Below are positions 7,441 to 40,283 of a DNA stretch of 64,000 nucleotides, one piece after another (position 1 is the first letter of the stretch; each line of letters begins with the position of its first letter). Position numbers and translations under genes: made by a program. Origin of the DNA: Nitrososphaerota archaeon (lineage in GTDB: Archaea > Thermoproteota > Nitrososphaeria > Nitrososphaerales > Nitrosopumilaceae); the NCBI GenBank assembly GCA_028867595.1, contig JAGWGB010000002.1, positions 62,001 to 126,000 of the forward strand. The letters run 5' to 3'. Under the pieces are notes generated by a model. That model had not been told where the DNA came from and did not search any database. It saw nothing but the letters and a program-made list of their open reading frames with translations.

Positions 7441-7458
7441 AGATTTTTTAAAAAAATT
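7441..7458 (+). terminator. T-rich stretch after rps7
   Basis: Six consecutive T residues followed by an A-run lie just after the S7 stop codon and before the tRNA on the other strand. Archaeal RNA polymerase terminates at oligo-T, so this is a plausible end of the rpoB-rps7 transcript. The following A-run would read as oligo-T for the convergent tRNA transcript. Confidence 0.45.
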
Positions 7459-7462
7459 AGGA

Positions 7463-7567
7463 TAGCCCGAGGCAGATTCGAACTGCCGTCTCCAGGTATC
7501 CTCTCATATGATCCAGAGCCTGGAATCCCTAGCCCAAAAATTTGTTTGGCCACTAGACTATCGGGCT
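7463..7567 (-). tRNA. tRNA-Gln (CUG anticodon) with two apparent introns
   Basis: On the minus strand the acceptor strands AGCCCGA and TCGGGCT pair, with discriminator A. The T arm is GGCAG-TTCGAAT-CTGCC and the anticodon stem is CCAGG/CCTGG. The 22 bases between the anticodon-stem strands fit a 7-base loop CUCUGGA plus a 15-base intron at the standard 37/38 position. Its CTCT can pair with AGAG in a relaxed bulge-helix-bulge. The D-arm region is also too long: GTC-TAGTGG is followed by a hairpin (CCAAA/TTTGG) before CTAGG-GAT. Removing about 17 bases there gives a 73-base tRNA. CCA is not encoded. The exact D-loop splice sites are uncertain. Confidence 0.9.
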
Positions 7568-7772
7568 ACCGAATCGAGTGGCATACGTTGAGAATATAAT
7601 TATTGTGTATTACTGTGATTTTGTACGTTGGAAACATCTGGTAATTGATCCTGCATTTTAAATAATTGAATTCTGTATTTTCATTAATGCATTTGACTCA
7701 AATACAAAATTATGCATTGAAAATCATATCAAACAATTTACAAAATGATGTACGTATCATGGAGAAAAGAAA

Positions 7773-40186: not shown

Positions 40187-40283
40187 GCCGGGGTCGCCTA
40201 GCCTGGTAGGGCGCGCGCCTGGAAATGAAAACCATAAAGCGCGTACTCGCAAGGGTTCGAGAGTTCAAATCTCTCTCCCGGCG
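40187..40283 (+). tRNA. tRNA-Ser (GGA anticodon) with a 13-base intron
   Basis: Acceptor strands GCCGGGG and TCCCGGC pair, with discriminator G as expected for serine. The D stem is GCC/GGC, the T arm GAGAG-TTCAAAT-CTCTC, and a long variable arm (ACTC-GCAA-GGGT) confirms the class II shape. Between the anticodon-stem strands CGCGC and GCGCG there are 20 bases: a loop CUGGAAA plus 13 intron bases at position 37/38, with TGG and CCA able to pair as a short bulge-helix-bulge core. CCA is not encoded. A remnant integrase gene begins 42 bases downstream. Confidence 0.93.

Follow-up and report, generated by a model that had tools for sequence, protein, structure and literature searches.

The window, by which we mean the whole 64,000-nucleotide stretch of DNA analysed, belongs to a genome whose genus is the Nitrosotalea group and carries, on its minus strand, a tRNA-Gln(CUG) gene that runs from A1 to the discriminator A73 and forms acceptor, D, anticodon and T stems of 7, 4, 5 and 5 bp, respectively (Table 1). 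Its upstream neighbours, named from their translations, presumably encode RNA polymerase subunit A and the ribosomal proteins S12 and S7. A first-pass annotation had described a 105-base gene with intact standard arms and two introns, comprising 15 extra bases at position 37/38 and about 17 in the D loop. The arms and both inserts are present as described, and 33 of the 35 loci from this genus carry the pair of inserts, a degree of conservation far beyond chance. The two exceptions are a contig-end fragment (L065) and an internally deleted copy (L064); in the latter (G016:C61), a short stretch between GGATCT repeats is gone and the anticodon with it, reflecting either a true deletion or an assembly error.

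Table 1 Features of the tRNA-Gln(CUG) locus (positions in the window; arrows mark predicted cuts)
Feature	Position	Strand	Description
tRNA-Gln(CUG) gene	7463..7567	-	105 nt with both introns; CCA not encoded
Exon 1	7546..7567	-	Positions 1-21: acceptor 5′ strand, D stem 5′ strand, D loop AGTGGCCAA
D-arm intron at 21/22 (predicted)	7529..7545	-	ACAAATTTTTGGGCTAG, 17 nt; placed by intronless orthologues and BHB register
Exon strand of D-arm central helix	7548..7551	-	GGCC (positions 18-20a)
Intron strand of D-arm central helix	7531..7534	-	GGCT, then 3′ bulge AG↓G
Intron-internal hairpin h′ of D-arm intron	7535..7544	-	CAA/TTG, loop ATTT; set off by 3-nt 5′ bulge AA↓A
Exon 2	7513..7528	-	Positions 22-37: D stem 3′ strand, anticodon stem 5′ strand
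Anticodon CTG	7514-7516	-	Within exon 2
Canonical 37/38 intron	7498..7512	-	ATCATATGAGAGGAT, 15 nt
Exon 3	7463..7497	-	Positions 38-73
TTATAT, box A/TATA-like	7594..7599	-	About 27-32 nt upstream; AT-rich counterpart in genus relatives
T7 run, oligo-T terminator-like	7450..7456	-	Directly downstream of the gene

When both inserts are removed, the remaining 73 nt are called tRNA-Gln(ctg) by ARAGORN with a score of 124.6, and excision of the two introns yields a standard cloverleaf with which the intronless orthologues agree. As a warning for annotation, ARAGORN otherwise missed the gene (0 genes in the window when run without introns) or mis-called it, as Pro(agg) when introns were permitted in the anticodon loop only and again as Pro when the D insert was left in, and cmscan of the whole window at the gathering score left it unlisted. 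A search of the window's own genome gave an RF00005 (Rfam) match of 43.7 bits at exactly 7463-7567.

Most likely, both inserts are introns of the archaeal bulge-helix-bulge (BHB) type that are spliced by proteins, and we put at roughly 94% the probability that the tRNA-Gln(CUG) gene is functional and has two such introns, the D-arm one lying at 21/22. It is very improbable that the gene is a pseudogene and that tRNA-Gln(UUG) decodes the CAG codons for glutamine in its place: the genome does have an intact Gln(UUG) gene (L016) and one CUG copy in the genus, L064, is internally deleted, but exons, stems and flanking signals are kept in 33 of the 35 genus loci and orthologues occur across the class. 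A second complete tRNA-Gln(CUG) gene, which the first-pass annotation had named as evidence that would count against its reading, was not found in a search of the window's own genome, which is 96.5% complete.

Position of the D-arm junction

Comparative evidence places the D-arm junction between positions 21 and 22 (TAGTGGCCAA↓ACAAATTTTTGGGCTAG↓GGAT), four bases 3′ of the 19/20 junction proposed earlier, at which TAGTGG would be joined to CTAGG. Among 124 loci, 53 distinct sequences fitted the exon pattern, the remainder being other isoacceptors, genes with other intron positions, fragments and duplicate sequences. Drawn from genus and family representatives, 45 distinct genes that fit the pattern bear the intron; the intronless Gln(CUG) genes (8 of the 53 sequences) all read TCTAGNGGYCAAGGAT. 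In the sister genus g27, in which 40 genomes were searched and 30 loci were kept as the basis of the counts, the D-arm intron is present in 15 loci and exactly absent from the other 15, and the 37/38 intron is retained in all 30. Two of these loci (L352 and L370) are identical in every printed part except for the 17-nt D-arm intron. Across the junction, intronless orthologues read AGYGGYCAA-GGAT, and the isoacceptor Gln(UUG) of the window's own genome (L016) has the D loop AGCGGTCAA followed by GCAT, without an insert.

Splicing at 19/20, which would give TAGTGG-CTAGGGAT, leaves a product of the same length and with the same ARAGORN score (124.6 for each), so the choice of junction rests on comparison. 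The minimum-energy fold of the unspliced precursor likewise contains the 5-bp hairpin (CCAAA/TTTGG) that the first-pass annotation had noted in the D insert, and lacks the BHB; folding alone and ARAGORN scores do not discriminate between the junctions. The hairpin is nevertheless unconserved, a property of close relatives: tabulation over 26 genes, in most of which the pairs past two C-G pairs are broken, rules it out as the splice motif. Moreover, all 8 intronless sequences and all 15 intronless g27 loci read GGYCAA-GGAT, and AGTGGCTAG, the D loop that 19/20 splicing implies, is absent from every one of them. With the BHB register also lying elsewhere, a 19/20 junction is scarcely credible. 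The intronless orthologues, a conserved four-pair central helix and an in-register 3-base 5′ bulge argue for 21/22, and these together with the own-genome isoacceptor contradict the earlier placement.

Alternatively, the mature tRNA might retain the insert and so have a larger D loop; the insert is conserved, it lies within a loop, and the D stem forms with the insert present. Such retention is highly unlikely given that the insert is precisely lost in some loci of the sister genus, that the own-genome intronless isoacceptor has a matching D loop, that insert length varies from 13 to 33 nt among relatives, and that a conserved BHB and endonuclease genes are present. Judged from sequence, the D-arm insert at 21/22 is an old intron shared among glutamine tRNAs and not a private insertion.

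Predicted splice motif and splicing endonuclease

With the junction set by the intronless orthologues, intron bases 6 to 3 from the intron's end are the partners of exon GGYC, and this helix of four pairs (GGYC in the exon, G[AG]YY in the intron) is preserved in all 117 distinct introns. The count includes related and hence non-independent sequences, tRNA function leaves the exon letters little room to vary, and some of the loci were collected with a pattern that specified two of the four letters on the intron side, others with a model in which these pairs add to the score. In the 80 loci kept from at least 119 stretches matching that pattern, the two intron letters that it did not specify are paired throughout. 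An A stands opposite U20 in 22 of 40 introns and opposite C20 in 0 of 77. Over 26 diverse genes, all four columns pair in every gene (104/104 cells), and sliding the helix by 1-3 columns pairs 75% of cells at best; the window's row in this alignment spans 7463-7566, without the first base of the gene, which leaves the counted columns unaffected. Because the exon letters hardly vary, a shuffle control for the 26-gene helix is weak: 8 of 500 shuffles attain the percentage observed.

The intron hairpin h′ begins at the second base of the intron, which sets the length of the 5′ bulge at exactly 3 nt. In this register all 94 introns tested form the first h′ pair, other registers scoring far lower, and h′ reaches at least two pairs in 75 of the 94 and at least three in 37, compared with 13.7 and 4.6 for shuffled introns. 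A 3′ bulge (AG↓G) can be drawn, and the outer helix within the genus consists only of the D stem across an internal loop, on account of which the motif is best described as relaxed and not as a strict hBHBh′. Complementarity between GGGCTA of the intron and the acceptor 5′ strand was set aside, the central helix accounting for it well enough. Separately, a GGYYRGR element of Aigarchaeal-type introns occurs in the cores of 35 of the 117 distinct introns (for example, L124, L138, L410 and L421; that in L442 is probably there by chance). Possible pairing partners of this element are exon GGYCA and the 5′ strand of the D stem.

The 37/38 intron, though canonical, is less regular than the D-arm intron. 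Its position and length fit a BHB; the strict register shows a C34-A mismatch in 8 of 26 rows. In the window, CTCT pairs fully with AGAG, giving a 3′ bulge of 4 nt, or alternatively pairs with GAGG at the cost of one C34-A mismatch.

The genome encodes two PF01974 proteins (L101 and L102), predicted to be the catalytic and structural subunits of an (αβ)2 splicing endonuclease. L101 aligns without gaps to the catalytic subunit of Aeropyrum pernix (E 4e-42) and has a lysine at the position of A. pernix residue 44, which we take to be the lysine of the crenarchaea-specific loop. L102 is divergent, with a glycine in place of the histidine of the Methanocaldococcus jannaschii enzyme, a residue that has a catalytic role there. 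We propose that a two-subunit (αβ)2 EndA would cleave between nucleotides of the bulges: in the D arm on the 3′ side of A21 and the 5′ side of G22 (AA↓A ... AG↓G), and in the anticodon loop on the 3′ side of G37 and the 5′ side of A38. The exons would next be joined by a tRNA ligase, which in archaea is RtcB, to give a 73-nt tRNA that has the D loop AGTGGCCAA and is expected to contain TAGTGGCCAAGGATTCC. What the DNA shows directly is the tRNA gene with its two inserts, the junction at 21/22 as an evolutionary unit, the conserved motif and the genes for the endonuclease; that pre-tRNA-Gln(CUG) is transcribed, cleaved and ligated is inferred. Reviews assign efficient cutting of relaxed motifs only to (αβ)2 and ε2 enzymes (PMC6379350) and describe the endonuclease of Thaumarchaeota as the α2β2 type (PMC4090602). 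The expectation of an endonuclease with relaxed substrate range is borne out to the extent that the genome encodes a two-subunit enzyme expected to cut such motifs.

Distribution among archaea

The first-pass annotation had called D-arm introns rare, which is too strong: the 21/22 intron is, on the loci compared, widespread in the class and also occurs in other classes of the phylum. A scan of named genomes found at least 119 stretches with the arrangement, 80 of which were kept as loci, and the genera labelled among the listed matches include Nitrosotalea, Nitrosocosmicus, Nitrososphaera, Caldarchaeum, Calditenuis and Geocrenenecus. In a phylum-wide model search, all 27 of the additional top loci that were parsed have the intron, three of them in Gln(UUG); as these loci are the best matches to an intron-bearing model, 27/27 is not a frequency. 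Nor do the numbers of matches to the glutamine model, among which are Gln(UUG) and tRNAs of other kinds, count introns. The D arm is intronless in several further members of the phylum (L432-L437, L439 and L445). By eye, other D-arm intron positions are seen in relatives, at 10/11 (for example, L077 and L272), 24/25 (for example, L298 and L338) and 15/16 (L271).

Several further tRNA genes were observed in passing. The window itself contains a tRNA-Ser(GGA) with a 13-nt 37/38 intron at 40187-40283. Elsewhere in the genome, a tRNA that by eye is initiator Met(CAU) (L252:1501-1605; G000:C126:4872-4976) seems to have a D-loop intron, ACTACGGGGCTAG, together with a 37/38 intron; the former ends GGCTAG↓G like the glutamine intron, and matches occur in 34 of 41 genomes searched. 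Another (L097; G000:C104:45556-45663), Asp(GUC) by eye and Arg according to ARAGORN, appears to lack an insert at 37/38 and to have two on the 5′ side of the anticodon. On the 7-kb contig C97 of this genome (L001), a tRNA-Arg(TCT) that looks bacterial and encodes its CCA is a possible assembly contaminant. In genus g29, both glutamine tRNAs of one genome (L322 and L323 in G105) are intronless, nearly alike and apparently have C33 instead of U, and the CUG gene there looks to have been copied from the UUG gene.

Relation to reported introns and implications

D-arm introns have long been established in archaea (PMC4090602, PMC4307357), and published work already describes D-arm introns, multi-intron tRNAs and thaumarchaeal noncanonical introns (PMC8450103, PMC4090602, PMC3293823, PMC3218864, PMC4307357). 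The D-arm intron of the window therefore adds one more well-supported case to a familiar archaeal pattern and is no surprise. tRNAscan-SE 2.0, which has a covariance model trained on thaumarchaeal introns, counted 107 noncanonical BHB introns in thaumarchaeal tRNA genes (PMC8450103); these share with the present intron the archaeal group, the BHB type and a location outside 37/38, and may include the Gln(CUG) intron. For Caldiarchaeum subterraneum, D-arm introns are mentioned and a multi-intron tRNA is printed as tRNA-Glu[CUG] (PMC3293823). It has multiple introns, as here, and differs in the printed isotype, Glu instead of Gln; because the anticodon CUG is that of glutamine, it is probably an orthologue of the window's gene. 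Two Caldarchaeum-labelled loci in our set (L124 and L136) have the 21/22 intron. In Sulfolobus tokodaii, EndA is reported to cleave a synthetic pre-tRNA-Glu at the predicted BHB-like sites of its D-arm introns (PMC4307357), a case that is alike in the location of the introns but differs in isotype and order and is experimentally confirmed, whereas the intron of the window is predicted from sequence. Literature searches that did not extend to most subscription papers or to the GtRNAdb tables turned up no report of a D-arm intron at 21/22 in a thaumarchaeal tRNA-Gln(CUG).

The present analysis corrects the junction of one gene and documents a widespread D-arm intron. It also identifies a pair of related species in which the genes differ, in the printed sequence, by exactly this intron, a clean system in which to ask whether the introns act and in which order the two leave the pre-tRNA. 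A tentative and rather doubtful extension is that the 21/22 intron is ancestral to the glutamine tRNA of the phylum and has persisted in many lineages, and that introns have been lost singly by way of an incompletely spliced RNA copy; loss by this route would mean that the D-arm intron leaves before the 37/38 intron. If the intron were indeed ancestral and repeatedly retained, this would point to a use, such as the ordering of pre-tRNA folding or modification.
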